In this document: piece after piece, positions 10,748 through 60,348 of the stretch
Position numbering within the stretch: position 1 is the stretch's first letter
Layout: the number at the start of each line of letters is the position of its first letter
Assembly: GCA_903929195.1 (NCBI GenBank)
Contig: CAIYTT010000042.1
Span: 1-64,000, forward strand
Length of the DNA stretch: 64,000 nucleotides
Direction of reading: 5' to 3'
Origin: an uncultured Bacteroidota bacterium
Lineage (GTDB): Bacteria; Bacteroidota; Bacteroidia; Chitinophagales; Chitinophagaceae
Notes under the pieces: model-generated
The model's input: the letters and a program-made list of their open reading frames with translations, nothing else
The model's database searches: none
Told to the model about the DNA's origin: nothing
Made by a program: the position numbers and the translations under genes

Positions 10748-11803
10748 ATGTCAGTAACGAGTCCTAAAAAAAAGAAAAAAGTAAAGAAAAAATCTCATTT
10801 AGGACTCTACCTAATATTAATACTATTGTGTGTAATCGGTTTTATTGGCTATAAAGTTTTCGGACCTAATACAGGAAAGCTTAAAAACGGCACTTATTTA
10901 TATATACATACAAATACCGATTATAAGCAACTTTTAAAAACACTGGAAGAAGGGGAATATATTAATGACATGTACATTTTTGACCTAATAGCACAACAAG
11001 TAAAACTTCCTCAACATATACATGCCGGAAAATATCAATTAAGAAAAGGGATGAGTAATTACGATATCATCCGTTTACTAAGGTCTGGAAAACAAACACC
11101 GGTAAAGCTTGTTATTAATAAATTACGCACAAAAAAAGAACTCATAAATCTATTGTCTTCAAACCTTGAAGCCGACTCTTTATCATTAAATCAACTATTT
11201 AACGACAAAGTATATCTTGCACAATTCGGTTTAGATACCAACACATTAATGTGTGCTATCTTCCCCGATACCTACCAGTTTTATTGGAATACAAGTGCCG
11301 ATAAATCTTTCAGGAAAATAGAAAATAACTTCTCACATTATTGGGATAAAGAACGAAAAATGAAAGCTAAAGAATTGGGCTTTACACCGATAGAAATAAC
11401 TATAATCGCATCTATTGTTGATGAAGAAACAAACAAAAATGAAGACAAGCCCAATATTGCAAGTGTTTATATTAATAGAATAAAAAAAGGTATGAAACTT
11501 CAAGCAGACCCTACTGTTAAATTTGCACTTAATGATTTTGCAATACGCAGAATAACAGGTGAAATGTTACAAACTACTTCTTTATATAATACCTATAAAT
11601 ACGAAGGCTTACCACCGGGACCAATTTGTACACCCTCTTTAAATTCAATTGAATCGGTTTTATCATCGCCCAAAACCACCTATCTATACTTTTGTGCTAA
11701 AAGCGATTTTAGCGGTTACTCGGCATTTGCTACCACATTCGACGAGCAACTAAAAAATGCCAGAGCCTATCAAAAAGCATTAGACCAAAAAGGAATTCAT
11801 TAA
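10748..11803 (+). CDS. mltG: Endolytic transglycosylase MltG (YceG)
   Basis: 351 residues. A lysine-rich cytoplasmic start is followed by one membrane helix (about residues 19-38) and a LysM-like region. The YceG catalytic domain contains IASIVDEETNKNED with the catalytic Glu, then ASVYINRIKKGMKLQADPT and GLPPGPICTPS. It cleaves nascent glycan strands in the periplasm and so sets peptidoglycan chain length. The ECF sigma gene starts about 25 bp after its stop, so the two may be cotranscribed. Confidence 0.95.
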   Translation: MSVTSPKKKKKVKKKSHLGLYLILILLCVIGFIGYKVFGPNTGKLKNGTYLYIHTNTDYKQLLKTLEEGEYINDMYIFDLIAQQVKLPQHIHAGKYQLRKGMSNYDIIRLLRSGKQTPVKLVINKLRTKKELINLLSSNLEADSLSLNQLFNDKVYLAQFGLDTNTLMCAIFPDTYQFYWNTSADKSFRKIENNFSHYWDKERKMKAKELGFTPIEITIIASIVDEETNKNEDKPNIASVYINRIKKGMKLQADPTVKFALNDFAIRRITGEMLQTTSLYNTYKYEGLPPGPICTPSLNSIESVLSSPKTTYLYFCAKSDFSGYSAFATTFDEQLKNARAYQKALDQKGIH

Positions 11804-11828
11804 TTTTATAATATAAAATTGTATTTTT

Positions 11829-12407
11829 ATTGAAAATCTGATACAAAAACTAAAGTTGGGCAATGAAAATGCTTTTAAAATGTTGGTGGAAACTTACCAA
11901 CATAAAATATATAATATTGCATATAACTTAGTTTTTGATACAGGCATTGCGGAGGATATTACACAAGAAGTATTTGTAAGTGTATTTAAATCAATCCTTA
12001 CTTTTAATGAAAAATCAAGCATTGATACTTGGTTATATCGGATAACGATAAATAAATGCTACGATTATCTTCGTGCCAAAGAAAGACGTAAAAAATTAGG
12101 GTTTATAAACAATGTCTTTTTTCCTTTTGAAGATGATGCTAACCCACTACCTGCAACAAACCATAACCCCGAATCTCAATTAGTACATAAAGAGAATACC
12201 TCCTATTTAATTATTGCTATTAATAGCTTACCCTTAAATCAAAAAACAGTTTTTATTTTAGCTCATATAGAAGAACTACCTCAAAAAGAAATTGCAGAAA
12301 TAATGAGCTTATCTATAAAAGCTATTGAATCTCTTTTACAAAGAGCAAAAATTAATTTAAGAAAAAAATTAAGTACCATATACGACCGAAGGAATAAAGC
12401 AAGTTAA
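11829..12407 (+). CDS. ECF-type RNA polymerase sigma factor
   Basis: About 192 residues. Region 2 reads ENLIQKLKLGNENAFKMLV and goes on to AEDITQEVFVSVFKS and TWLYRITINKCYDYLRAKERR; region 4 has LPLNQKTVFILAHIEELPQKEIAEIMSLSIKAIES with its helix-turn-helix. No ATG precedes the conserved region 2. The first ATG/GTG/TTG is TTG at 11856, which would remove part of the first helix, while the frame is open back to 11817 and codes recognisable family residues. I place the start at the ATT at 11829, with low certainty on that point. It heads a three-gene set with a one-TM protein and a Spy-like protein. Confidence 0.88.
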   Translation: MENLIQKLKLGNENAFKMLVETYQHKIYNIAYNLVFDTGIAEDITQEVFVSVFKSILTFNEKSSIDTWLYRITINKCYDYLRAKERRKKLGFINNVFFPFEDDANPLPATNHNPESQLVHKENTSYLIIAINSLPLNQKTVFILAHIEELPQKEIAEIMSLSIKAIESLLQRAKINLRKKLSTIYDRRNKAS

Positions 12408-12448
12408 ACGTCTAATTAAGTGATTGATAATAAAAATTCTAATAAATT

Positions 12449-12730
12449 ATGAATAAAGAACAATGGATAGAAGATATATTGAATAGTGCAGGTGAATTAA
12501 AAAATAATAGACTCAAAAACGATTTATTGAATAGCATTTTATTGAAAATAAATACCAATACTAACAATATAAATAATATTAAATTAAGATGGATAAGTAT
12601 TGCTGCTATAGTATTAATTTTCATGAATATAAGCTCTGTTTTACATGCAAAAACACATAAAAATAAACAAAATAACAATATTAGTATTCTTGCAGACGAA
12701 TTAAATGCCAATAATAATTATAATTATTAA
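12449..12730 (+). CDS. Small single-TM protein, candidate anti-sigma factor
   Basis: 93 residues: an N-terminal helical region (about 1-48) that would be cytoplasmic, one membrane helix (about residues 49-66, ISIAAIVLIFMNISSVL) and a short asparagine-rich tail. No zinc-finger motif is present. Size, topology and position directly behind an ECF sigma gene suggest an anti-sigma or regulatory partner. This is inference from context. The Spy-like gene starts 5 bp after its stop. Confidence 0.7.
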   Translation: MNKEQWIEDILNSAGELKNNRLKNDLLNSILLKINTNTNNINNIKLRWISIAAIVLIFMNISSVLHAKTHKNKQNNNISILADELNANNNYNY

Positions 12731-12735
12731 TAAAT

Positions 12736-13272
12736 ATGAATGAGACCAAAACAATAAAAATCTGGCAATACATAACAACTATTTTGGTTGCATGCAATAT
12801 AACCTTAATGCTAGTTATTTGGCTAAAACCTAATAACGACCCTGAAAGACAAAGAATAGCGCCAAGAGAAATAATTATAAACAAATTGAAATTTACAAAT
12901 GAACAAATAAAAAATTATGATTCTCTAATTGCAATTCATCGCACAAAAACAAACGAATTACATCAGAAATCGGCTAAATGGCACGAGGCATTTTTTGAAA
13001 ACTTAAAAAACAATCAATATCAACCTACAATTGCCGACTCCATCTTAAATTTAATTGCTGCTACCGAAAAAGAAAATGACTTAATGACATTTAATCATTT
13101 TAAAGCAGTAAGAGCAATTTGTACTAAAGAACAGCAGCAAGAATTTGATATTATAATAAATGAAGTATTACACACCATGAAACAGGGTAACAATAGAAGA
13201 CCCGAAAATAGACCAAGACCACCAATGCCACCCGATGGTGATAGACCTCCACCACCTAACAGAGAAAATTAA
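12736..13272 (+). CDS. Spy/CpxP-like periplasmic protein with proline-rich tail
   Basis: 178 residues: one N-terminal membrane anchor (about residues 10-30), then a helical periplasmic domain beginning INKLKFTNEQIKNYDSLI, which resembles the LTxEQ helix of Spy/CpxP and heavy-metal sensor proteins. The C-terminal 25 residues are almost all Pro, Arg and Asp. Genes of this kind often follow ECF sigma factors in Bacteroidota as envelope-stress sensors or chaperones. Function is inferred from fold pattern and neighbours. Confidence 0.72.
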   Translation: MNETKTIKIWQYITTILVACNITLMLVIWLKPNNDPERQRIAPREIIINKLKFTNEQIKNYDSLIAIHRTKTNELHQKSAKWHEAFFENLKNNQYQPTIADSILNLIAATEKENDLMTFNHFKAVRAICTKEQQQEFDIIINEVLHTMKQGNNRRPENRPRPPMPPDGDRPPPPNREN

Positions 13273-23258: not shown

Positions 23259-23576
23259 ATGGATAATAACACAGACATATTAAAACGCATTAAGAATTCG
23301 GTTTCTTCTACTGCACCCAATGCAATTTTAATAGTTTATGGGTCTTACGCTCGTGGTGATTTTAGACCTGATTCTGATATTGATTTACTGATACTTTTAG
23401 ATAAAGAAAAAATTTCTTATGAAGAAAAAATAAGTATTAAATACCCATTATATCATATAGAATTTGAAACCGGAATACTAATTAGTCCATTAATACTATC
23501 AAAACAAGTATGGGAAACAAAGCATAAAATAACGCCTTTTTATGAAAATGTTACCAATGAAGGTAAAATTTTATGA
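23259..23576 (+). CDS. MNT-type minimal nucleotidyltransferase (antitoxin)
   Basis: 105 residues. GSYARGDFRPDSDID near residue 28 is an exact GS-x10-D-x-D nucleotidyltransferase motif of the polymerase-beta superfamily. In MntA-HepT systems such a protein neutralises the HEPN toxin by AMP transfer. Its stop overlaps the start of the next gene by 4 bases (ATGA), the usual coupling of these pairs. Confidence 0.9.
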   Translation: MDNNTDILKRIKNSVSSTAPNAILIVYGSYARGDFRPDSDIDLLILLDKEKISYEEKISIKYPLYHIEFETGILISPLILSKQVWETKHKITPFYENVTNEGKIL

Positions 23577-23992
23577 CAACTGAAGAAAAGATAAAAATTG
23601 TTAGATTCAGATTAAATAAGGCAAAAGAAACTTATGAAGAAGCATGTTATTTGGCAAATGGACATAAATGGAATGCAACAGTAAATAGGTTATATTATGC
23701 TTGTTATTATTCTGTAACAGCGTTATTGGCATGGCACGAAATAAAAACAAAATCGCATAGTGGTGTTAGAAATAGATTAGGTTTCCATTTTGTAAAAACC
23801 GGAATAATTAATGAAAAATATGCTGTCTTTTATTCAGATATTTTTGATATGAGACAAGCGTCTGATTATGAAGATTATTTGGAGTATGAAAAAGAGGATG
23901 TACTCATTTTACTAAAACCTGCTGAGGAATTTATTTTACAAATGGAGCATTTTATATTCAATCTAATTGAAAGTACTGAGTTTTGCAATTGA
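23573..23992 (+). CDS. HEPN domain protein (UPF0332-type, toxin partner of MNT)
   Basis: 139 residues, all helical. RLNKAKETYEEACYLANGH, NATVNRLYYACYYSVTALL and FYSDIFDMRQASDYEDYLEY are typical of UPF0332/COG1895 HEPN proteins. RNRLGFH near residue 65 gives an R-x5-H spacing, at the edge of the HEPN R-x4-6-H rule, and the Tyr two residues after the His that is the AMP acceptor in HepT is missing (Val-Lys instead). It could therefore be a variant or a non-toxic member. Coupled to the upstream MNT gene by a 4-base overlap. Confidence 0.88.
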   Translation: MTTEEKIKIVRFRLNKAKETYEEACYLANGHKWNATVNRLYYACYYSVTALLAWHEIKTKSHSGVRNRLGFHFVKTGIINEKYAVFYSDIFDMRQASDYEDYLEYEKEDVLILLKPAEEFILQMEHFIFNLIESTEFCN

Positions 23993-31340: not shown

Positions 31341-31892
31341 GTGGACAAAATACGGAAGATGAGAAAAAATAAAGAGAAAAACTACATAGTTGAAGAAAAT
31401 AATGAACAGGAAACACAACTAACAGAACCCTATTTTGCAAATTATTTACCTATACAATCTATAGCAGCAAAAACGATAGGTATTATGGGTTTAAATAAAG
31501 AAAAAGAATTTAGAACTATACAAAATGAGAGTGATTTAATAGGGGTAATACGCTCCGGAATACCTAAAAATGCAATGACTAACATGATGAATATCGCAAA
31601 TTTATCGTTGGTAGAAATGGCGAATATCATACATACCACAGATAGAACATTAAGAAGGTACACTGATAATGAAAAATTATCTTTAGACCAATCTGAAAGA
31701 ATTGTAGAATTAGCAAAGTTATATGCACGCGGCGAGGAGGTATTTGGCAATTTAAATAACTTTAGGGAGTGGATGGATTGTAAATTAATGGTGTTAGGCA
31801 ATAAAAAACCCAAAGAATATTTAGATACCTGTATAGGCATAAACATGCTTATTGAAGAATTAGGTAAAATTGAAAACGGAATTTTTGCTTAA
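31341..31892 (+). CDS. ParS/Xre/MbcA-type antitoxin (DUF2384)
   Basis: 183 residues from a GTG at 31341; the ATG at 31359 (MRKNKEKN) is an equally good start. The central helix-turn-helix-like part reads LSLVEMANIIHTTDRTLRRY. The C-terminal DUF2384 part is GNLNNFREWMDCKLMVLGNK, then PKEYLDTCIGINMLIEELGK. It binds DNA and masks the RES toxin whose gene overlaps by one base (TAATG). It lies 36 bp behind purF on the same strand. Confidence 0.93.
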   Translation: MDKIRKMRKNKEKNYIVEENNEQETQLTEPYFANYLPIQSIAAKTIGIMGLNKEKEFRTIQNESDLIGVIRSGIPKNAMTNMMNIANLSLVEMANIIHTTDRTLRRYTDNEKLSLDQSERIVELAKLYARGEEVFGNLNNFREWMDCKLMVLGNKKPKEYLDTCIGINMLIEELGKIENGIFA

Positions 31893-32347
31893 TGGTCGTA
31901 TATAGAATAGCAAAAAAAGAGTTTATTGAAGACCTAAGCGGCAAAGGGGCAGCCATGTTTGGTGGTAGATGGAACAGTAAAAATACTTATATTGTTTATA
32001 CTGCCGAAAGTAGGGCATTAGCTTTGCTTGAAAGTTTGGCTCATATAGGAAAAATTCAGGGTAGTATTTTTAGTATAGCCTCTATTTTTATTCCTGATAA
32101 TTTTATTGATATTATTCTAAAAGAAAATTTATCTCCTTATTGGTACAGTAACCCACCACCCGACTATTTAAGAATTATTGGAGATAATTTTATTAAAAAC
32201 AAAAAAAATCTTGCACTAAAAATTCCATCTGTAATTGTACCCGATGAGTATAATTATTTATTAAACCCATCGCATATAGAATTTAATAAAATAAAAATTA
32301 TGAATGTACAAGCTCTTGCATTAGATAAAAGATTACTTAATGAGTAG
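31892..32347 (+). CDS. RES-domain toxin (NAD+-consuming)
   Basis: 151 residues. VYRIAKKEFIEDLSGKGAAM, FGGRWNSKNTYIVYTAES and RALALLESLAHIG give the Arg, Tyr/Glu and Ser positions of the RES fold, an ADP-ribosyltransferase-like domain. Characterised RES toxins such as those of the MbcT/ParT/Res-Xre families destroy NAD+ or modify a target by ADP-ribosylation. The catalytic residues look intact, so the pair is probably functional. It is directly beside the methyltransferase-kinase operon, forming a defence island. Confidence 0.93.
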   Translation: MVVYRIAKKEFIEDLSGKGAAMFGGRWNSKNTYIVYTAESRALALLESLAHIGKIQGSIFSIASIFIPDNFIDIILKENLSPYWYSNPPPDYLRIIGDNFIKNKKNLALKIPSVIVPDEYNYLLNPSHIEFNKIKIMNVQALALDKRLLNE

Positions 32348-32946: not shown

Positions 32947-33903
32947 TTATTCTAAATGAGGTAAAGTAGTTTCTCTAATCGCTTTCAAAATATCAGTATA
33001 TTTCCTTAGGTTTTTTCTTATGTGAATGCAAGTATCTTGATTAAATTTCTCCGGATGTTGTCCATCTTTTTTTGAAATAATTAAATATTCAATTCCATCA
33101 ATAGTATCACTTTTCGCATGGGCTAAATCATTTCGAATATCTAAGACATCCTTTTTGTAGTTAGAATAAAAGTCAATAAACGGTTCTGTGTTCTGTAACT
33201 GTTTTATTTTAATCAATCGGCCTATCGTACGAGCTTTTTTATCGGCATCAAAAACTCTTTCCTTTAATATCTCAGCGTTTTTATGTTCATGTAATTTGTT
33301 AGCTCGATCACAATTTGACACCGATGACTTAATGACTGAATCAATGATATATGTTCTTATTTTCTCTGTATCATCATTGTTATCGGCTAAGAAACAGGAT
33401 AAAATTTCTATTATTGTGTTGTCAAGTTCACTTGTTTCCGCCATTACCAGCCCCCTAATACTATTAATTTCTTGAAGTTTTGATATAGTCAATTCAATTA
33501 GTCGAAAAGTTCTGCTTCTAAATTCCCTCATACCTTCATCTCCCACCAAACTAAAAAATGATACCCTATCACGATATAAATTTTTTGCGATTTCATCAAA
33601 GTTTTTTTGGGCAGAATAAAACAAGACTTCAGTAAAAACCCCACCATCGCGAATCTTTTGGATAAGTACATCGCCCTGCTTTTCCTTTTCTTTTCCCTTT
33701 TCATCAATACTATAATCGGATAGTATTAGATCATATTTGGTTGATTTTAAAGATTCTTCTGCTTTATTACTATCTTCAAATGTATCAATTAGTGGTATAA
33801 ATCCGAGATTTTCTAAAAAAGAAAGAAATTCCGATTTAATTCCCATTTCAATATAGTCCTCTATATTATCATCTATCCAAAGTATTTTATAGCTCAATTT
33901 CAT
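32947..33903 (-). CDS. Receiver-domain protein with C-terminal HEPN-like module
   Basis: 318 residues. Residues about 1-125 form a response-regulator receiver: ILWIDDN gives the acidic pair D11/D12, LILSDYSI gives the phospho-acceptor D63, and FYSAQ gives the switch Ser97. The usual Lys of strand 5 is not seen (FFSLVGDEG). There is no DNA-binding domain. Residues about 150-310 are helical, and DIRNDLAHAK at 255-264 carries R257-x4-H262, the HEPN ribonuclease motif. The start overlaps the upstream ATPase gene by 4 bases (ATGA). I infer a phosphorelay output that may cut RNA; the HEPN call rests on the motif and helical pattern. Confidence 0.85.
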   Translation of the reverse strand: MKLSYKILWIDDNIEDYIEMGIKSEFLSFLENLGFIPLIDTFEDSNKAEESLKSTKYDLILSDYSIDEKGKEKEKQGDVLIQKIRDGGVFTEVLFYSAQKNFDEIAKNLYRDRVSFFSLVGDEGMREFRSRTFRLIELTISKLQEINSIRGLVMAETSELDNTIIEILSCFLADNNDDTEKIRTYIIDSVIKSSVSNCDRANKLHEHKNAEILKERVFDADKKARTIGRLIKIKQLQNTEPFIDFYSNYKKDVLDIRNDLAHAKSDTIDGIEYLIISKKDGQHPEKFNQDTCIHIRKNLRKYTDILKAIRETTLPHLE

Positions 33904-36578
33904 TTTTTAAATTTTAAAATAAATTCAACACCTTGTTTAAGCTTGTTGTTGACTGAAATTTCTCCTCCCATTTTTTCAATTACTTCTTTTGTGTGATATA
34001 GACCTAAGCCTGACCCATTGGTCGTAGTAAATCTCGGGTCAAAAATTCTTTGTAAATACTTATCTTCTATTCCCTTACCATCATCCAAAATATGCAAAAT
34101 AATTTCTGATGTACTAATACTTTCCCAACTAATGTTGACATTTTTTGCATTTGCTTTTAATGAATTATTTAAAATGTTATCCAAAATAATAATTAATTCA
34201 ATTGGTCTAAAAGAACAATCAAAAATAATATTTTGAGGGGTAGTTGCAGTCATTCTTAAATTTTGATTATTCATAATAAAATGACTATATTCCTGATAGA
34301 CATTTAGAACATATTCATTTACAAACTTAATCAAATCTGCATGTATTTTGGTAACAGTAGTGTCGAACTGTGCTTTTGTAACAAATCTTGATAATGTAAT
34401 TATCTTCTTGTTTTCAAAGGAAATTTTGCTGGCTAATTTTAATAATTCGTCTTTAGGTGAATCTTTGTTGATTGAATCAACTAATTGTTCAATATAAGCA
34501 GTAATATGTTGTGCTGAATGCCTGTATATATGATGTTGAATACTCAATAGGTCATCTTTCTCTGTACCTCTGTCTGCTTTAGAAAACAGTGTTTCAGATA
34601 TTTGTTGTTCTAATTCCTGCTTAAGTGCAGGTATTTCGATTTCCTTTAATCTATTTGTTTCTTTTTCTGCCTCGAATCGCCTATTCTTTTCTTCAATAAC
34701 CCTCTGTTCTGCAACTTCTTTTTGAGATTCAAGCAGTTGAATAATTTTTTTTTGTTCTTCTTTTTCTTCTTTTTCCTTCTCTAATTTTACTTTAAGTTCT
34801 TCGATAATTTGAGTCTGTCTTACAATCGTTTCTTTATAATATTGTAATTCCGTAATAGCCTTTGCAGTAGCCTCAGTTGTCGTATATTTAGAAAAATCTG
34901 CAAGCTGTTTTTCTAAATCTTTATTTTGCTCTGCTTTTTTCTGCAAAATTCTATTTAGAACATCAACATCAATTTTTTTGTTTTCAAAATCTGAAATTAA
35001 TTGTTCAAACTCTCGTTCTGAGTTCTTTTTCTCTTCATTTATTTTGTCAAGAATGAGATTTTCGTTAATATAAATCTTTATTACGGTATCTGCTTTTGCC
35101 GAAATAATTGAATGTATTGAAGCATAAATTCTTTTTCTTTTTGTTACATCATCCTCACGAAAAACTAAATCATTTTCGTTAGTCTCGCCAGATATAATCT
35201 TCTTCTCTATGTCGCTAATTTTATCCCTATCGTCTTCAGGAATACTATCCCAAGCAAGGCCATCTACAACATATTTTTCAAGTCGTTTAAATATCTTAAA
35301 AAAGTAGCCATTTTTTTGCTCAGTTAACTTTTTATAACTTTCATTTTTTATAATCCCTTCTCGACTTGATATAACCTTAAAATCGTTTTCCGAATCTAAA
35401 ATTTCAATTCTACCAACTAATTCTCTTTGACCTAAAAATCTAGCATACCCTTGCCCTTTTCTTAATTCTAAATTTAACCAATCATCACCAAATTCACCAT
35501 AGGGGGGAACACGAAAACCATTTAAAAAAACATAAATTGATCCATAATCAATGGGTCGCACACCTGTTTGTTTAGTGAAAAATGCTTTGGTGTATGGATT
35601 TAAGTAATAAAGTATGATTTTTACGTTTTTTATTTCAGGATAAAACTCGTTTTTTTCTTTTATCCAAAAAATTATTTGCCCCTTATCCTTTAATTCTGTA
35701 TATATGACTTTGCCTCCATCAATAATATTACTCTCAATACTTGTTGTTTTGAAATCTAATTTTTCAAAAATAGAATTTTCAACTTTTCCAATAAATTTTT
35801 CTTCATTTTTTTTTCTTTCATTTTCCCCTTCAAAACCCATTACATTTAAGTAAATGCCAAAATCACTTTTTTCAAATGCTTGGTTAGGATTTATTAATTT
35901 CTCTAAATATCTTTTTAAATCTATTAATTTTTTTGTGTCCCAATCAATAATAGTCCCTGTTTCATTTTTTACTGGATAAACCCATTTGCTCCTTAATTTT
36001 ATTACCTCTAAAACAACTCCTTGTTGAAATGGCGCAATTTTATATTCAAATAATTCATTCTCATTTAAAATGTCATACTTTATGGCGATAGATTGTATTT
36101 CTTTATCTTTATCATTTTCAATTTCAAAAGCTTTCCAATCAATGAAAATTTTTATATAGTTTTCGCTATTTTTCTGTTTTGTATAAAGGTTTAAAAACTC
36201 CCCCAATCTATCACAAGAAAATCTTCCAACTCCTTTTGCACCGGCCATCATTCTATTGTGCTGCCTCGTATTATTTTTTTTTTCTGAGTAGGCAATATTT
36301 AGCCATTTATCTTTGATGTCAACAAGACTCATCCCGACACCATCATCTTTAATAATTAATCTTGAAGTAAAATCAGTAAAATTATTATTGTTTGTAAGAT
36401 TGTTATCATCTGAATTTTTAAGATTGACAAATGTGATATCTACTTTTTTAGCGTCAGCATCAAATGAGTTTTTTACTAGTTCTAATATAGCAATATTATC
36501 ATCATTGATAAGATCTTTACCAATGATGCTTTTAAGTTGAACATTTGTTTTGAAGTGTAAATCTATATTAGTATCCAT
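33900..36578 (-). CDS. Dual GHKL ATPase: MORC/Hsp90-like plus histidine-kinase module
   Basis: 892 residues from the ATG at 36578, chosen because it overlaps the methyltransferase stop by one base (TGATG); an upstream ATG at 36611 would lie inside that gene. N-terminal GHKL ATPase: ELVKNSFDAD (33-42, Mg-binding Asn37), KDDGVGM (77-83), GAKGVGRF (113-120). Residues about 510-665 are a long charged coiled coil. A DHp-like helix follows (SIQHHIYRHSAQH, 679-691, candidate phospho-His), then a second GHKL domain with ILDNILNNSLK (798-808), DDGKGI (832-837), IFDPRFTT (845-852) and GSGLGL (855-860). Probably senses DNA or invader state and signals to the receiver protein. Cytoplasmic, no membrane helix. 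Confidence 0.9.
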   Translation of the reverse strand: MDTNIDLHFKTNVQLKSIIGKDLINDDNIAILELVKNSFDADAKKVDITFVNLKNSDDNNLTNNNNFTDFTSRLIIKDDGVGMSLVDIKDKWLNIAYSEKKNNTRQHNRMMAGAKGVGRFSCDRLGEFLNLYTKQKNSENYIKIFIDWKAFEIENDKDKEIQSIAIKYDILNENELFEYKIAPFQQGVVLEVIKLRSKWVYPVKNETGTIIDWDTKKLIDLKRYLEKLINPNQAFEKSDFGIYLNVMGFEGENERKKNEEKFIGKVENSIFEKLDFKTTSIESNIIDGGKVIYTELKDKGQIIFWIKEKNEFYPEIKNVKIILYYLNPYTKAFFTKQTGVRPIDYGSIYVFLNGFRVPPYGEFGDDWLNLELRKGQGYARFLGQRELVGRIEILDSENDFKVISSREGIIKNESYKKLTEQKNGYFFKIFKRLEKYVVDGLAWDSIPEDDRDKISDIEKKIISGETNENDLVFREDDVTKRKRIYASIHSIISAKADTVIKIYINENLILDKINEEKKNSEREFEQLISDFENKKIDVDVLNRILQKKAEQNKDLEKQLADFSKYTTTEATAKAITELQYYKETIVRQTQIIEELKVKLEKEKEEKEEQKKIIQLLESQKEVAEQRVIEEKNRRFEAEKETNRLKEIEIPALKQELEQQISETLFSKADRGTEKDDLLSIQHHIYRHSAQHITAYIEQLVDSINKDSPKDELLKLASKISFENKKIITLSRFVTKAQFDTTVTKIHADLIKFVNEYVLNVYQEYSHFIMNNQNLRMTATTPQNIIFDCSFRPIELIIILDNILNNSLKANAKNVNISWESISTSEIILHILDDGKGIEDKYLQRIFDPRFTTTNGSGLGLYHTKEVIEKMGGEISVNNKLKQGVEFILKFKK

Positions 36579-37798
36579 CAATTTACCATTTCTTTTAAAA
36601 CTATACCACATTGTTCCCCAAATAATGGTGGTATGGCATTGCCTATTTGTGAATACCTCGGCACTTCTTTTGTTCTTAATTTCCCTCCTGTAGTATATTT
36701 CCCCTGAAACTCATACCAGTCAGGGAAACTTTGTATCCTTGCATATTCCCGTACTGTTAAAATCCTCGGTTCGCTGTAGTGAATATAATCATCGGGTAGA
36801 GTAGTAATTGTTGGGCTTTTTTGTACCCCGTCCAAAGGAATTACAGTATGTTTTTTTATATTATACCTCTGCCTGAGGTCTTTAGAAACGTCTTTGTTTT
36901 TTCTGCCGCTATCACTAATTATTGCCAGAAATTTTTCTATAATATCCGGTCTGTGTTTCGGGAATCTATGGCTGTCGGCAATTTCTTTGTCCACCCCCTT
37001 TCGCATAAATACCTGATAAGGGCTATTCTGTTTTGAATACGTACCTGCCTGATAGCTTTTTGTATCCGGTGATTCGCGTAACTCGTTTTCTTTCAATAGG
37101 TCGGATATCGCATCCTGCAAATTGCTGTCAATACTTAAATTCTTTTCATTCAGGAAAGAACAAGTATTAGCTTTAATCGTATAGAAGAAATTGGCTACCA
37201 GTTCTTCTGATGCTTTTGGAATATCTTTCCTTACACCCACCAGAATAAACCTCGTTCTTTTCTGCGGGATACCGTATTCTCCAAAATTAATCAATTCTCC
37301 TTTTACATAATAACCAGAATCTTCAAGCGATTTTTGAACAAATAACGAATATTCCTTGCCTTTATCTCTGTTTTTTTTAAATTCCAACGTAAAACCCTTT
37401 ACATTCTCAAAAAAAAGAATTTTGGGCTTTACTATTTCTATAAAATCAATGTAAGATTTAATAAGGTTATTTCTGTGGTCGTTTTCATTGCGTCTGCCAG
37501 CCATTGAAAACCCTTGACAAGGTGGGCCTCCAGCTACAAGATCTACTTTACCTTGTAAATCTTTTAATTGTTCTTTATGTTTTTCAATTACTGCTTCAAT
37601 CTCTAAATGGCCGGGTTCACCTAACCATTTTGGCCAATTAAAATGACTTTTCTTATCAATTAAATTATGTTTTAGTGTTTTAAAAGCATCAGGGCTTTTT
37701 TCTATGGCAAATAACCCTTTCCACCCTGCATTATACAGACCGAGCGACAATCCACCACATCCTGCAAATAAGTCAATATAAGTCGGGTTTTTGTTCAT
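36578..37798 (-). CDS. C5-cytosine DNA methyltransferase
   Basis: 406 residues with all main m5C motifs: I DLFAGCGGLSLG (9-20), IV GGPPCQGFS with catalytic Cys94, VI ENV (131-133), VIII QKRTR (179-183), and X RYSQIGNAIPP (381-391). The target-recognition region spans about 190-340. It transfers a methyl group from SAM to carbon 5 of cytosine in a short DNA target that cannot be read from sequence. It is the first gene of a three-gene operon, and no restriction endonuclease gene adjoins it. Large palindromes lie directly upstream of its start. Confidence 0.95.
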   Translation of the reverse strand: MNKNPTYIDLFAGCGGLSLGLYNAGWKGLFAIEKSPDAFKTLKHNLIDKKSHFNWPKWLGEPGHLEIEAVIEKHKEQLKDLQGKVDLVAGGPPCQGFSMAGRRNENDHRNNLIKSYIDFIEIVKPKILFFENVKGFTLEFKKNRDKGKEYSLFVQKSLEDSGYYVKGELINFGEYGIPQKRTRFILVGVRKDIPKASEELVANFFYTIKANTCSFLNEKNLSIDSNLQDAISDLLKENELRESPDTKSYQAGTYSKQNSPYQVFMRKGVDKEIADSHRFPKHRPDIIEKFLAIISDSGRKNKDVSKDLRQRYNIKKHTVIPLDGVQKSPTITTLPDDYIHYSEPRILTVREYARIQSFPDWYEFQGKYTTGGKLRTKEVPRYSQIGNAIPPLFGEQCGIVLKEMVN

Positions 37799-54162: not shown

Positions 54163-57100
54163 TTAATTTTTAATAAATCTAACAGTTTGCATTTTAATAC
54201 CGTTTTTAATACACGTTACAAAATAACAACCGGTTGCAAACCCATGTAAATCAATCTTGTCAATGTTTTTAATTTGTTTTGTAGAAGACACAACCCTACC
54301 ATATACATCACATATTTCTAATTGTACATTATCCATATTATCTGTATTGATTACAATATTTACATAATCTAAATTTGTAGGATTTGGATATAAAGAAAGA
54401 ACCGGTATATCTGTATTGTGAATTGTATTTGTACCAAGTGGTGTGTTTACATACGTTTTTTGCATACAACCGTTCAGCATGGTAATTACCCAATAATACT
54501 TAGTAATAAAATTAGGTGTAGTATTCGTATAATATTGATTTATTTCACCGGGTATCAATGTTGAATCAAGCGTTAAAGCGTCATCATAACCCCATTGATA
54601 CGAATCTTCAAGTGCTTTTTGGCAAATAAATTGTGGGTATGAATAAAATACTTCCGGAGTATCAGAAACTGCATTAGCGGCAATATATGCCACAAAAGAG
54701 TCTTTTGCAGAGCACATTGCACCACTTTGATGTGCAGTTAGATAGACTACCCCTTTACCTGCGGAATCAAAATTAACTATACAATATTGTTTTGTAGTTC
54801 CTGTTGCCCATACAGTCGCATTATTAGATGTCCACTGATAATCAACACCGGGTATAGGTGTAGTGGTTCCAAAATTTTGATACATCGTATTGGTGCAAAG
54901 TAAATTAGGCGGCATTGTAGTTATTTTTACAGTAAGATACGGGCTAATTACAACTCTTACGGGTTCTGTATTTGTACAACCATTTGCACTAATAGTATTT
55001 AAATACACAACAGAAACAGTATCTGCCGTTGTATTTACCAATATCTCATTTATGGAGTCAATACCGGCTCCGGCACCATTAGATACACCGCTTACAACAG
55101 GGCGAACCCAACTAAAAGTAGCACCGGGAATACTACTGCCAGGTACATAATAAAATAGTGTACTATCACAAATTCCGGGTGGCGTAAGCGAGGTATTCAA
55201 AACCGGTTTAGGGTATATTTTAACTGAATCTGTCGTGAAATTTTTGCAACCATTAATTGATAATGTGTCTATGTAGAAAACAGTTACAGGTACAGATGTT
55301 AGATTAATTAAGTATTCGTTCGGGCTACCGCTACCGGAAGCAGGGGGATTACCAATACTACCATTTGCAGGACGATACCATGTAAAAACGACACCGGCAG
55401 TAGAACTGGAATCAATATAACTAAATAAAGCACTGTCGCAAATAGGTTGCGGTGGAACAATATTAGTTAATAATGGTTTTGGATTTACGGAAACAGAAAT
55501 TGTTTGAACATTTTTACAACCATTTAGTGTTAAGGTATCAACATAAGTAACCGTTATAGGATTGATAGTCGTATTTACCAATCTTTCATTGATATTGCCC
55601 GAACCGGTATCGGCAGGATTCGTTATTCCCGCTACTAAAGCCCTACTCCAAGAATAAGTAGTACCAACTGTTAAACTTGAATCTATATAAGTAAAAAGAG
55701 CACTATCACAAACAGAATGCGGGCTAAGTGTACTGCTTAATACCGGCTTAGGATTTACGATAACAGTATCGGGTTGGTAGCTTGCACAACCTGAAATTGT
55801 AAGAGATGTTAGATAAACAACATTTATTGGATTTGCAGTCGTATTTACGAGTACTTCATTTATGGAATCACCACCACTTGCAGCAGGGTTACTAATACCG
55901 GCAATACTATCTCTATGCCAATATAAAGTAGTACCCGTTGTACCACTCGATAATACATAGGTATAAAGTGTACTGTCGCAAATAGTGCTTGTAGCTACTG
56001 ATGTTGTTAATGTAGGTATTGGGCTTACATTTACCCTTATAGTATCTGTATTTACACAACCATTTGCTTTAATAGTATCAATATAGATTACAGAAACCGC
56101 ATGTAAAGTAGTATCTAGTAATACTTCACTAATATTACCGGTATCACTGTTTGCCGGATTACTGATGCCAACCATGGCAGCTCTACTCCATGCAAAAGAA
56201 ACACCGGGTGCTAAACTACTATCCGTATAATGAAATGTAGCACCGGCACAAATTGAGAACGAATTAACCGTATTACTTAGCGATAATTTTGAGTTCACAA
56301 CTACTGTAATCGTCTCAAAATTGATACAACCGTTTGCGTGTAATGTATCTATATACGTTACTGTTATAGGTAAAAAAGTTGTATTAATAAGATATTCATT
56401 AATATCACCTATACCGCTTGCAGCCGGATTACTTATTCCCGTAACCGTATCTCTGCTCCAAGTAAAAGTTGTTCCTGTAGTAAAACTCGTATCTAAATAA
56501 GAAAACAAAGTGCTATCGCAAATAGAGTGTGGCGTAAGTGTACTACTCAAATTAGGTTTTGGGTTTACTGTAACTGTTAATTGTTGTGTGTTTTGACATC
56601 CATTAGCAGTGAGTGTGTCAACATAAATAACATTGACAGACGAATATGTCGTATTTACTAGATATTCAGAGGGATTGCCCACACCTGATGCAGCAGGATT
56701 AGTGATACCGGCTGTAAATGCACGACTCCAAGAATAGGTTGTACCACTAACCAAACTTGAATCTAAATAACTGAATAAATTGCTATCGCAAATTGTAGCC
56801 GACATAACTACATTACTTAGAATAGGTTTAGGATTTACAGTAACTGTAATAGGTGCAAAATTTTGACAACCATTAATTGTAATTGTATCTATATAGGTAA
56901 CTGCAATCGAATTGAGAGTAGTATTATTTAAGTATTCATTGGGGCTGCCAGTGCCACTTGCAGCGGGATTCAGAATTCCTGCAACTGTAGTTCTACTCCA
57001 AGAATAGGTTACACCTGTAGTTAAGCTGGAATCTAAATAAACAAATAGCGTACTATCGCATACGGTTGTTGACGTAATTATATTATTAATAAAAGGCTTA

Positions 57101-60100
57101 GGATTAACAGTAACCTGAACTGCTTGGAAATTACTGCAACCATTTGCATACAAGGTATCAATATAGGTAACAACAATCGGGTTAGTTGTCGTATTTTCTA
57201 AATATTCATTCGGATTTCCAATACCACTTGCAGCCGGATTAGTGATTCCTGTTAGTATATTTCTACTCCAAGCAAATGTAGTACCTGTGGTTAAGCTGGA
57301 ATCTAAGTAACTAAATAAAGTACTATCGCAAATAGGAGTAGGTGCAAGTGTGTTACTAAGTGTAGGTTTCGGATTTACAACAACACTAACTGTTGCAATA
57401 TTACTACACCCATTTGCAGTTAAAGTATCAACATAAACAACTGTTATAGGAGCAACAGTACTATTTACAAGATATTCCAATGGATTGCCAGTACCGGATG
57501 CAGCAGCATTTGTGATACCTGTTTGCAAAGCACGGCTCCAACTAAATACTGTACCAACTGTTAAGCTTGTATCTAAATAGCTAAACAAAGTACTATCGCA
57601 AATAGCAGCAGGTGCAATTGTGTTACTTAGGGTAGGTAATGGGTTTATTGATATAGTAAACGTACGAGATATACCCGGACAACTATGTGCAGTTGGTTGC
57701 ACCGTAATATTGGCTGTTAAAATAGTATATCCGCTATTCGTAGAAGTAAAACTTAAATTACCACTGCCACTTGCCAACAAATCAATACTTGTATTGTCAT
57801 TTGTCCAATTGTAAACACTTGATAAATCACTTCCGGTAAAATTGACAGTGTCTATTGTTGTAGCACAAAATGAATGAGAAGCAATAAAATCAATTGTTGG
57901 TATTGGGTTCACACTTACAGTTAACAAGGCAGTGCTACTACAACCATTTGTTGTTCCGGTTACCGTATAAGTAATTGTACTTGTAGGGTTCGCTGTTTCA
58001 CTTGCATCGGTAGAAGTTGATAACCCTGTTGTAGGAGACCAGGAATAGGTTGTACCCCCACTTGCACTTAGGGTTGTAGAATTACCACTACAAATAGTAA
58101 CATCGCCACTTGATGTAATAATTGGTAGCGGATTTACACTTACTGTTAGCATTGCAGTATTGCTACAACCACTTGTAGTACCTGTAACCGTATAGGTTGT
58201 TGTACTTGTTGGATTCGCAGTTACACTTGCATCGGTAGAAGTTGATAACCCTGTTGTAGGAGACCATGAATACGTTGTGCCTCCACTGGCATTTAGAGTT
58301 GTTGAAGTACCACTGCAAATCGTAACATCTCCACTTGTTGTAATAATAGGAATCGGATTTACACTTACGGTTAGCGTGGCTGTACTACTACAACCACTTG
58401 TTGTCCCTGTAACTGTATAAGTAATAATACTTGTTGGGTTTGCTGTTACACTGCCGCTAGTACTACTCGATAAATCCGTTGTTGGTGACCATGAGTAGGT
58501 TGTTCCTCCACTTGCACTTATTGTAGTTGAATTACCTGTGCAAATAGCAACATCTCCACTTGTTGTAATGGTTGGTAATGGATTTACACTTACAGTTAAC
58601 GTTGCTGTATTATCACACCCGCTTGTTGTTCCGGTTACTGTATAAGTTACCGTACTTGTAGGGTTTGCTGTTACACTTGCATCGGTAGAAGTTGATAATC
58701 CGGTTGTAGGGGACCACGAATACGTTGTACCCCCGCTGGCACTTAGTGTTGTTGAAGTACCCGAACATATCGTAACATCTCCACTGGATGTAATAATGGG
58801 TAGTGGGTTCACACTTACAGTTAGTGTGGCAGTATTATCACAACCACTTGTTGTTCCGATTACCGTATAAGTAACAGTACTTGTTGGGTTTGCTGATACA
58901 CTGCCGCCAGTTGAACTTGATAAATCCGTTGTGGGAGACCATGAATACGTTGTTCCTCCGCTGGCACTTAGGGTTGTTGAAGTACCGGAACATATTGTAA
59001 CGTCTACACTTGTTGTAATGGTTGGTATCGGGTTCACACTTACGGTTAACATGGCAGTGCTGCTACAACCACCGGTAGTTCCGGTAACGGTATAAGTAAC
59101 AGTACTTGTTGGGTTTGCTGTTATACTTGCATCGGTAGAAGTTGATAATCCGGTTGAAGGAGACCATGAGTAGGATGTACCTCCACTTGCAATTAGGGTT
59201 GTAGAATTACCTGAGCAAATAGCAACATCTCCGCTAGTGGTAATTGTAGGAGAAGGATTCACACTTACTGTTAACGTTGCAGTATTATCACACCCGCTTG
59301 TTGTTCCGGTTACCGTATAAGTTACCGTACTAGTAGGGTTTGCTGTTACACTGCCACTTGTTGTACTTGATAAATCCGTTGTGGGAGACCATGAATACGT
59401 CGTTCCACCACTAGCACTTAGGGTTGTTGAAGTACCCGAACATATCGTAACATCCCCACTGGTTGTAATTGTAGGAATCGGGTTTACACTTACAGTTAGT
59501 GTAGCAGTATTATCACACCCGCTTGTAGTTCCTGTAACTGTATAAGTAACAGTACTTGTTGGGTTTGCTGTTACACTGCCGCCAGTTGAGCTTGATAAAT
59601 CAGTTGTGGGAGACCATGAGTAGGTTGTTCCTCCACTTGCACTTAGGGTTATTGAAGTACCCGAACATATCGTAACGTCGCCACTTGTTGTAATAGTGGG
59701 TAGTGGGTTAACACTTACCGTTAGTGTGGCAGTATTATCACACCCGCTTGTTGTACCGGTAACCGTATAAGTAATCGTACTTGTAGGGTTTGCCGTTACA
59801 CTTGCATCCGTAGAAGTAGATAATCCTGTTGTAGGAGACCATGAATAGGTTGTTCCTCCACTTGCACTTATGGTTGTTGAATTACCTGTACAAATAGCAA
59901 CATCACCGCTTGTTGTAATTGTAGGAGAAGGGTTTACACTGACTGTTACAATAATTGTATTTGTATTTGTACCATCACTAATTTGTATTGTAAAATTATC
60001 TGTACCTACATAACCGATTGTAGGGGTATAAATAAGACCTGAAGGCGTATTAACACCTACAACTTCAGGTGCAATAAAATCAAAGCCTGATAAGGAACCA

Positions 60101-60348
60101 TTTGTAGGATTTGCAGCTATTGACCATGTGTCGGATGGTCCACTGGCTACATCGGTTACGCTTAATAAAGAACTAATATCAAACGAAGTAGAACTTGTAC
60201 ACATAATAAAATTTGCACTAGTACCTGAAACAAATGTAGGACCTTGTGCAAGTACTCTATTTCCAAAAAGAATTAACATTAATATAATCGAAAAAATGCC
60301 AATACTTTTTACAAAACGTAGCCATTGTATCAGAAAAAATTTAATCAT
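54163..60348 (-). CDS. Giant repetitive T9SS-secreted surface protein
   Basis: 2061 residues. Signal peptide with a long hydrophobic core (about 14-34, ending VLAQ); N-terminal cadherin/VCBS-like domain (35-138). Array 1 is nine 75-residue units (139-813), each with a CSG or CTG Cys, TYSWSPTT and TLTVSVNP. One PKD-like unit follows (814-901). Array 2 is ten 90-residue PKD/Ig-like units (902-1801, ICDSTLFSYLD and NGC). A divergent module (1802-1889) and a C-terminal T9SS type A sorting domain (about 1980-2061: LSLYPNPT, DVYGRVV and VRFIKN) end it. Expected to be exported across both membranes and anchored on the cell surface. Probable adhesin or gliding-type filament. Confidence 0.92.
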   Translation of the reverse strand: MIKFFLIQWLRFVKSIGIFSIILMLILFGNRVLAQGPTFVSGTSANFIMCTSSTSFDISSLLSVTDVASGPSDTWSIAANPTNGSLSGFDFIAPEVVGVNTPSGLIYTPTIGYVGTDNFTIQISDGTNTNTIIVTVSVNPSPTITTSGDVAICTGNSTTISASGGTTYSWSPTTGLSTSTDASVTANPTSTITYTVTGTTSGCDNTATLTVSVNPLPTITTSGDVTICSGTSITLSASGGTTYSWSPTTDLSSSTGGSVTANPTSTVTYTVTGTTSGCDNTATLTVSVNPIPTITTSGDVTICSGTSTTLSASGGTTYSWSPTTDLSSTTSGSVTANPTSTVTYTVTGTTSGCDNTATLTVSVNPSPTITTSGDVAICSGNSTTLIASGGTSYSWSPSTGLSTSTDASITANPTSTVTYTVTGTTGGCSSTAMLTVSVNPIPTITTSVDVTICSGTSTTLSASGGTTYSWSPTTDLSSSTGGSVSANPTSTVTYTVIGTTSGCDNTATLTVSVNPLPIITSSGDVTICSGTSTTLSASGGTTYSWSPTTGLSTSTDASVTANPTSTVTYTVTGTTSGCDNTATLTVSVNPLPTITTSGDVAICTGNSTTISASGGTTYSWSPTTDLSSSTSGSVTANPTSIITYTVTGTTSGCSSTATLTVSVNPIPIITTSGDVTICSGTSTTLNASGGTTYSWSPTTGLSTSTDASVTANPTSTTTYTVTGTTSGCSNTAMLTVSVNPLPIITSSGDVTICSGNSTTLSASGGTTYSWSPTTGLSTSTDASETANPTSTITYTVTGTTNGCSSTALLTVSVNPIPTIDFIASHSFCATTIDTVNFTGSDLSSVYNWTNDNTSIDLLASGSGNLSFTSTNSGYTILTANITVQPTAHSCPGISRTFTISINPLPTLSNTIAPAAICDSTLFSYLDTSLTVGTVFSWSRALQTGITNAAASGTGNPLEYLVNSTVAPITVVYVDTLTANGCSNIATVSVVVNPKPTLSNTLAPTPICDSTLFSYLDSSLTTGTTFAWSRNILTGITNPAASGIGNPNEYLENTTTNPIVVTYIDTLYANGCSNFQAVQVTVNPKPFINNIITSTTVCDSTLFVYLDSSLTTGVTYSWSRTTVAGILNPAASGTGSPNEYLNNTTLNSIAVTYIDTITINGCQNFAPITVTVNPKPILSNVVMSATICDSNLFSYLDSSLVSGTTYSWSRAFTAGITNPAASGVGNPSEYLVNTTYSSVNVIYVDTLTANGCQNTQQLTVTVNPKPNLSSTLTPHSICDSTLFSYLDTSFTTGTTFTWSRDTVTGISNPAASGIGDINEYLINTTFLPITVTYIDTLHANGCINFETITVVVNSKLSLSNTVNSFSICAGATFHYTDSSLAPGVSFAWSRAAMVGISNPANSDTGNISEVLLDTTLHAVSVIYIDTIKANGCVNTDTIRVNVSPIPTLTTSVATSTICDSTLYTYVLSSGTTGTTLYWHRDSIAGISNPAASGGDSINEVLVNTTANPINVVYLTSLTISGCASYQPDTVIVNPKPVLSSTLSPHSVCDSALFTYIDSSLTVGTTYSWSRALVAGITNPADTGSGNINERLVNTTINPITVTYVDTLTLNGCKNVQTISVSVNPKPLLTNIVPPQPICDSALFSYIDSSSTAGVVFTWYRPANGSIGNPPASGSGSPNEYLINLTSVPVTVFYIDTLSINGCKNFTTDSVKIYPKPVLNTSLTPPGICDSTLFYYVPGSSIPGATFSWVRPVVSGVSNGAGAGIDSINEILVNTTADTVSVVYLNTISANGCTNTEPVRVVISPYLTVKITTMPPNLLCTNTMYQNFGTTTPIPGVDYQWTSNNATVWATGTTKQYCIVNFDSAGKGVVYLTAHQSGAMCSAKDSFVAYIAANAVSDTPEVFYSYPQFICQKALEDSYQWGYDDALTLDSTLIPGEINQYYTNTTPNFITKYYWVITMLNGCMQKTYVNTPLGTNTIHNTDIPVLSLYPNPTNLDYVNIVINTDNMDNVQLEICDVYGRVVSSTKQIKNIDKIDLHGFATGCYFVTCIKNGIKMQTVRFIKN
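54946..57645 (-). repeat. Ten tandem 270-bp coding repeats (array 2)
   Basis: Ten units of 90 codons, each starting NPKP (or NPLP/SPIP) and containing ICDSTLF, WSR, NPAASG, NEYL and NGC. Units are diverged, with only these anchors constant, so the array is older than array 1. Confidence 0.9.
57910..59934 (-). repeat. Nine tandem 225-bp coding repeats (array 1)
   Basis: Nine units of exactly 75 codons with no length change. Units differ at only a few residues (for example TGLSTSTDAS versus TDLSSSTGGS, and GCDN versus GCSS), so they were copied or homogenised recently. DNA identity between units is high enough to allow slippage or recombination. Confidence 0.95.

Follow-up and report, generated by a model that had tools for sequence, protein, structure and literature searches.

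Two-component signalling has already been tied to C5 DNA methyltransferases by the two-component-like HEF_HK/Response_reg_2 pair (PF19191/PF19192) described in 2021 (Bellieny-Rabelo, PMC8011034), for which a signalling role in the control of restriction–modification (R–M) systems was proposed. GHKL ATPases of the paraMORC type had been predicted in R–M operons (Iyer 2008, PMC2292703), and a survey of HEPN proteins recorded a Ymh-type HEPN domain fused to paraMORC (PMC3710099). VcSduA, a Shedu protein with a GHKL N-terminal domain, needs both this domain and its nuclease for anti-phage activity (PMC12137116).

The locus analysed here has much in common with the HEF_HK system: a protein combining HATPase_c_3 with a C-terminal HATPase_c kinase, an adjacent receiver-like gene, an upstream C5-methyltransferase, a soluble make-up, and HNH_2 or Vsr in some neighbourhoods. 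A first-pass annotation, made from the sequence alone, had said that this was not a described system, which was too strong given that the core of methyltransferase, kinase and receiver-like protein is present in PMC8011034. The two nevertheless differ, as the receiver at our locus is fused to an RN-x3-H domain and those of relatives are paired with a CHAT protease, whereas the HEF_HK paper proposes a regulatory R–M role and no killing by an effector. PF19191 had no match at E ≤ 1 in our dual-GHKL protein and none in the whole of its genome (it matched in five of 40 genomes), and PF19192 had no match in our receiver protein. The core is therefore already known; what we have not found described, in the openly licensed literature searched, is the set of effector forms of the relay, with their swappable killer ends.

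The paraMORC/MORC systems likewise place a GHKL module beside DNA methyltransferases in R–M neighbourhoods, once with a HEPN output, but at our locus sensor and output are linked through a histidine kinase and a receiver, and the output is a separate protein. VcSduA differs in being a single protein with a nuclease, and has no methyltransferase, kinase or receiver. In SAVED-CHAT and other CHAT effectors, a CHAT-like protease output is shared with five relatives of our operon (L010, L068, L073, L070 and L023), not with the operon itself, and in these relatives it would be controlled by a receiver instead of a cyclic-nucleotide sensor.

Detocs is a two-component phage defence system with a TPR-type sensor kinase and a PNP effector, and resembles our locus in pairing a histidine kinase with a receiver fused to a killing domain. 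In Pfam, however, the N-terminus of our kinase is HATPase_c_3, not TPR, and the receiver protein has no PNP match; moreover, a DNA methyltransferase belongs to our operon. PADLOC-DB 2.0.0 models matched the sensor and receiver only at E > 0.005, which counts against a defence function, and no characterised non-defence system matched the ATPase or the receiver.

Gene layout and predicted domains of the operon

The operon spans positions 32947–37798 on the minus strand of the window (the whole stretch of 64,000 nucleotides analysed, from a genome designated G000) and encodes, in order, an m5C methyltransferase, a dual-GHKL protein and a receiver protein. One base is common to the methyltransferase stop and GHKL start (TGATG) and four to the GHKL stop and receiver start (ATGA); coordinates, strand, boundaries and overlaps had all been correctly annotated at first pass. 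The features are:

36578..37798 (minus strand), m5C DNA methyltransferase, 406 aa (PF00145, motifs and PADLOC MTase_II, 2.4e-85)
33900..36578 (minus strand), dual-GHKL protein, 892 aa, P0002 (Pfam domains and motifs)
35172..36578 (minus strand), sensor module of P0002, profile A3 (E33-N37, DDGVGM at 78, GAKGVGR at 113)
33903..34593 (minus strand), histidine kinase module of P0002 (H682, N box at 801, G1 at 832, G2 at ~855)
32947..33903 (minus strand), receiver-effector protein, 318 aa, P0003
33540..33903 (minus strand), predicted receiver domain of P0003, residues ~4–120 (D63; AlphaFold and Foldseek)
32950..33492 (minus strand), predicted C-terminal effector domain of P0003, mostly helical (invariant R257-N258-x3-H262)

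Judged by its sequence, the methyltransferase is a complete enzyme, as had been claimed: PF00145 matched with E = 2.6e-56, Cys94 lies in PPCQ, and ENV (at 131) and QKRTR (the QxRxR motif, at 179) are intact. The accompanying claim that an endonuclease is absent holds for the operon's immediate surroundings, as no endonuclease gene adjoins it within the window. GC content is 27–32% over most of the operon compared with 35–40% at purF and the aldehyde dehydrogenase gene on either side, and the flanks of the three closest loci (window, L009 and L010) are unlike one another, so the operon is probably mobile; the operon at L023 is plasmid-borne, with transposition genes nearby. Searches with tblastn found nothing for P0003 in plasmids and phages, and only short pieces of P0002 in phages.

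P0002 is made up of a MORC/MutL-like ATPase module (residues 1–~470), a coiled-coil-like linker (~470–660) and a histidine kinase (~665–892). The two GHKL ATP-binding domains first noticed by eye are recovered by Pfam as HATPase_c_3 at residues 28–161 (3.1e-23) and HATPase_c at residues 793–891 (4.7e-22), with intact motifs in the N-terminal domain and, in the kinase, an N box, DDGKG as G1 and GSGLGLY as G2. H682, the first His of IQHHI, precedes the HATPase_c domain, and its column is kept in 16/16 related proteins, among which the H-box consensus is (L/I/M)xH(H/Q/S/A/T)(I/V). These boxes, together with the His kept in all members, make the C-terminal half a complete and presumably active histidine kinase. 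With the receiver encoded next to it, this agrees with the earlier pairing of kinase and receiver: the features of a two-component system are present, the kinase having its H-box His with N and G boxes and the receiver fold its phospho-acceptor Asp.

The receiver was recognised in Pfam by PF00072 alone, weakly and under the curated cut-off (E = 1.3e-3). The AlphaFold model of P0003 (pLDDT 79) has the (βα)5 order of a receiver, and a Foldseek search with the whole model placed receivers on top, such as ComE (target TM about 0.8); by its predicted fold, the N-terminal domain is a clear (βα)5 receiver. D63 is invariant in 12/12 receiver-effector homologues and remains so when five receivers of greater divergence are aligned. 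The lysine usual in β5 of receivers was not found in the window protein, which counts against the phosphorelay reading, and the domain may therefore be a divergent switch.

The C-terminal ~180 residues of P0003 are predicted to be mostly helical, and R257-N258-D-L-A-H262 ends a long helix (residues 242–261) in the AlphaFold model. Across the 12 homologues, only about seven residues of the domain never vary, R257, N258 and H262 among them, so the R-x4-H motif picked out at first pass is present and, like D63, fully conserved. RiboL-PSP HEPN proteins of Bacteroidota also carry RN-x3-H, as RNNILH, RNDCAH and RNSLVH. No match to HEPN was found for the effector domain in Pfam, NCBIfam, PHROG or a PDB sequence search, which counts against a HEPN effector, and an hhalign comparison with one HEPN family (RiboL-PSP) aligned RNxxAH at a non-significant probability of 1.4%. 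The HEPN assignment in the first-pass annotation thus survives as a motif and a predicted helical topology, since no HEPN profile matched, and we regard the domain as HEPN-type by these features and not as a proven HEPN member. On the same features, it most likely cleaves RNA. Profile scans found no match of this output domain to a DNA-binding family.

Recurrence of the unit and exchange of its output half

A profile of the effector domain was used to survey 396 Bacteroidota genomes and then 395 genomes of the class (~790 in total). The first survey gave matches in seven genomes besides that of the window, all within about 3 kb of a sensor-profile match, and the second gave three further true members, each with a sensor and a methyltransferase, and one weak false match. 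The RN-x3-H family therefore comprises ten new members plus the window and L009, with a sensor and an m5C methyltransferase alongside in 12/12, and the three genes do recur together in distant genomes, which was the check proposed at the outset. Across both surveys, 10/11 distinct non-window effector-profile matches lie beside a sensor. At L074 and L075 the methyltransferase gene is downstream and convergent. A match in G515 (E = 9.4e-5) was rejected, as it is partial, falls in a ~500-aa protein of other make-up and has no sensor nearby.

Sensors of all types were matched in 40/396 genomes. We examined 48 sensors, five of them taken from plasmid records. A DNA methyltransferase lies no more than three genes away from 45 of these (an m5C enzyme in 33 cases, one with just an N6/N4 motif in 12), and 47 are followed by a same-strand gene no more than 20 nt downstream. 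Plasmid records outside Bacteroidota include Stenotrophomonas, with a CHAT-like effector, and Campylobacter and Deinococcus, with other outputs.

At L010, L068, L073, L070 and the plasmid locus L023, the receiver is without the RN-x3-H domain and is followed by a protein of ~217–247 aa in which HG...SC is invariant in all five cases. The L010 protein was modelled with a pLDDT of 75, and its top PDB matches were three chains of the SAVED-CHAT filament 8tl0 (E = 4.5e-4, probability 1.0). The His–Cys dyad and predicted CHAT-like fold mark this output as a caspase-like protease of the CHAT type, a class of effector typical of cell suicide.

Nearest to the window/L009 pair is L010, with 70% identity in the methyltransferase and 72% in the sensor, compared with 26–27% in the kinase and 22% in the receiver. 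Along the dual-GHKL protein, identity drops sharply, from about 70–80% to about 12–38%, past residue ~600. Because L010 keeps the methyltransferase and sensor and differs in kinase, receiver and effector, a target half and an output half are exchangeable. The simple reading is a system of two halves, in which methyltransferase and MORC-like sensor form the target half, and kinase, receiver and effector the output half. In a sensor tree (IQ-TREE, 51 rows), RN-x3-H and CHAT loci fall in one clade (support 100/98), in which the well-supported branches require each of the two labels to have changed three times or more. In a permutation test on 17 loci, similarity of the kinase (p = 0.0004) and of the receiver (p = 0.0012) predicts the effector type, whereas that of the methyltransferase does not (p = 0.44) and that of the sensor does not do so clearly (p = 0.08), while kinase and receiver similarities are the best correlated pair (r = 0.75).

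More distant sensor clades encode a receiver with an HNH protein, a receiver with a metallo-β-lactamase (MBL)-fold protein, or receivers with other C-terminal domains, with or without Vsr. L083, L100, L102, L026 and L027 form a separate clade (99/97) with an N6-type methyltransferase nearby, a receiver of ~210–225 aa and an HNH-like protein of ~190–210 aa, and this type looks like a kinase-controlled HNH nuclease system. The MBL-fold output follows sensor and receiver at two loci of one clade (100/99), L024 (12067–13780) and L089 (13326–15010). At L025, L076, L077, L098, L103 and L104, the domain fused C-terminally to the receiver has a TPSCD/NPxCD-like motif and finishes in a conserved YARQG/YNRIG; plasmids of Campylobacter jejuni/coli commonly carry the L025 form, and a Vsr gene comes after the receiver protein at L098, L103 and L104.

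A putative methylation-guarded relay and its alternatives

The reading we consider best, and on balance probable, is a putative phosphorelay, guarded by methylation, whose firing would kill the cell or make it dormant (abortive infection). The m5C methyltransferase, a complete enzyme, would mark the cell's own sites, and the N-terminal MORC/MutL-like GHKL module would sense unmethylated or invading DNA; this DNA-facing role is suggested by what is known of the family and by the module remaining beside the methyltransferase where a different output half is present. An ATP-driven rearrangement transmitted through the linker would then lead the C-terminal kinase to autophosphorylate H682, from which phosphate would pass to the conserved D63 of the receiver, and phosphorylation would free the RN-x3-H domain, most likely to cut RNA. 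In relatives, a separate CHAT protease would take the same place; further out among the sensor clades, this would be an HNH nuclease or MBL-fold protein. Methylation would presumably restrain the relay and phage would presumably trigger it. A chain of this kind had been sketched at first pass, and co-occurrence, the kinase–receiver pair and the CHAT swap speak for it, while homology gave its HEPN step no support, as no profile matched.

One alternative is regulation, in which a two-component system would control the methyltransferase or an R–M system, as proposed for HEF_HK/Response_reg_2 (PMC8011034), with the receiver a regulator and not a killer. The identical gene content and order in that work, along with the optional HNH_2 gene in three relatives, fit such a role, which we nonetheless think unlikely, as the output domain lacks a DNA-binding family match, keeps an invariant RN-x3-H and is swapped for a CHAT protease gene, and as no restriction enzyme adjoins the window operon and an HNH_2 partner is missing from G000. 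The endonuclease question bears more directly on an unusual Type II R–M system, in which an accessory HNH_2 protein, lost here, would be the endonuclease and kinase and receiver would only gate cutting. HNH_2 genes flank the operon at L009, L069 and L071, there is a weak match between the sensor module and restriction enzymes of the BbrUII/HgiDII family (6.7e-13), and in the distinct sensor clade with a nearby N6-type methyltransferase the sensor is followed by receiver and HNH. The HNH_2 profile matched in the genomes of these three loci, elsewhere in the genome in G364 and weakly in G167, whereas the same search, with positive controls matched, found no homologue in G000, G088, G271 or G207, all of which carry RN-x3-H operons. 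On its absence from G000 we rejected HNH_2 as an obligatory effector; it is an optional passenger, and this operon has its effector elsewhere. A nearby restriction enzyme as the real partner, named at first pass as a finding that would refute the defence reading, was not borne out by this search. We therefore rate the Type II reading as improbable, slightly more so than regulation, although the three relatives with adjacent HNH_2 count against abortive infection to the extent that DNA cutting may matter in some of them.

A selfish addiction or stress module, in which the relay would fire when the methyltransferase is lost, or on a cellular cue such as NTP level or DNA damage, and phage would not be the main target, appears to us the least probable of the three. 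Post-segregational killing has this layout of methyltransferase guard and predicted toxin, the operon is probably mobile, with differing flanks at the three closest loci and a plasmid copy near transposition genes at L023, and a RES/Xre toxin–antitoxin pair lies next door. By itself, however, addiction leaves unexplained both the MORC-like sensor and a diversification of effectors of the phage-conflict type, and it is also compatible with defence.

The abortive-infection relay could be one form of a broader arrangement: a putative modular immune class, to which we give an even chance, whose MORC-like sensor, paired with a matching DNA methyltransferase, would report missing self-methylation by His–Asp phosphotransfer to interchangeable suicide effectors, namely an RN-x3-H ribonuclease, CHAT protease, HNH and MBL-fold proteins. 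If so, the self/non-self check of R–M would feed into abortive infection and not into DNA cutting, joining the use of DNA marks as identity to two-component signalling with plug-in killing domains. Orphan HATPase_c_3/HATPase_c kinases and receivers near DNA methyltransferases, often annotated 'sensor histidine kinase', would gain a function, and the bacterial MORC-like ATPase would become a testable signalling sensor with a bearing on eukaryotic MORCs.

Neighbouring genes in the window and at related loci

At L067, a PADLOC Orf5/HEC-06-type protein (11451–13184; 9.4e-70) is encoded two genes downstream of the RN-x3-H operon, which points to a defence island. In the window, the operon is directly adjoined, in convergent orientation, by a type II toxin–antitoxin pair at 31341–32347 (plus strand), in which an Xre/MbcA-type antitoxin (PF20432, PF09722) precedes a RES-domain toxin (PF08808). 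Approximately 9 kb from the operon, an MNT nucleotidyltransferase and a PF05168 HEPN protein (23259–23992, plus strand) make up a typical MNT–HEPN toxin–antitoxin module. A 2061-aa protein encoded at 54163–60348 (minus strand), which carries Ig_7 domains as well as a Por secretion tail (PF18962), is a large type 9 secreted protein. At two related loci, L070 (5046–10126) and L115 (3905–8661), the sensor-kinase gene lies in two frames, which may reflect assembly error, frameshift or decay.
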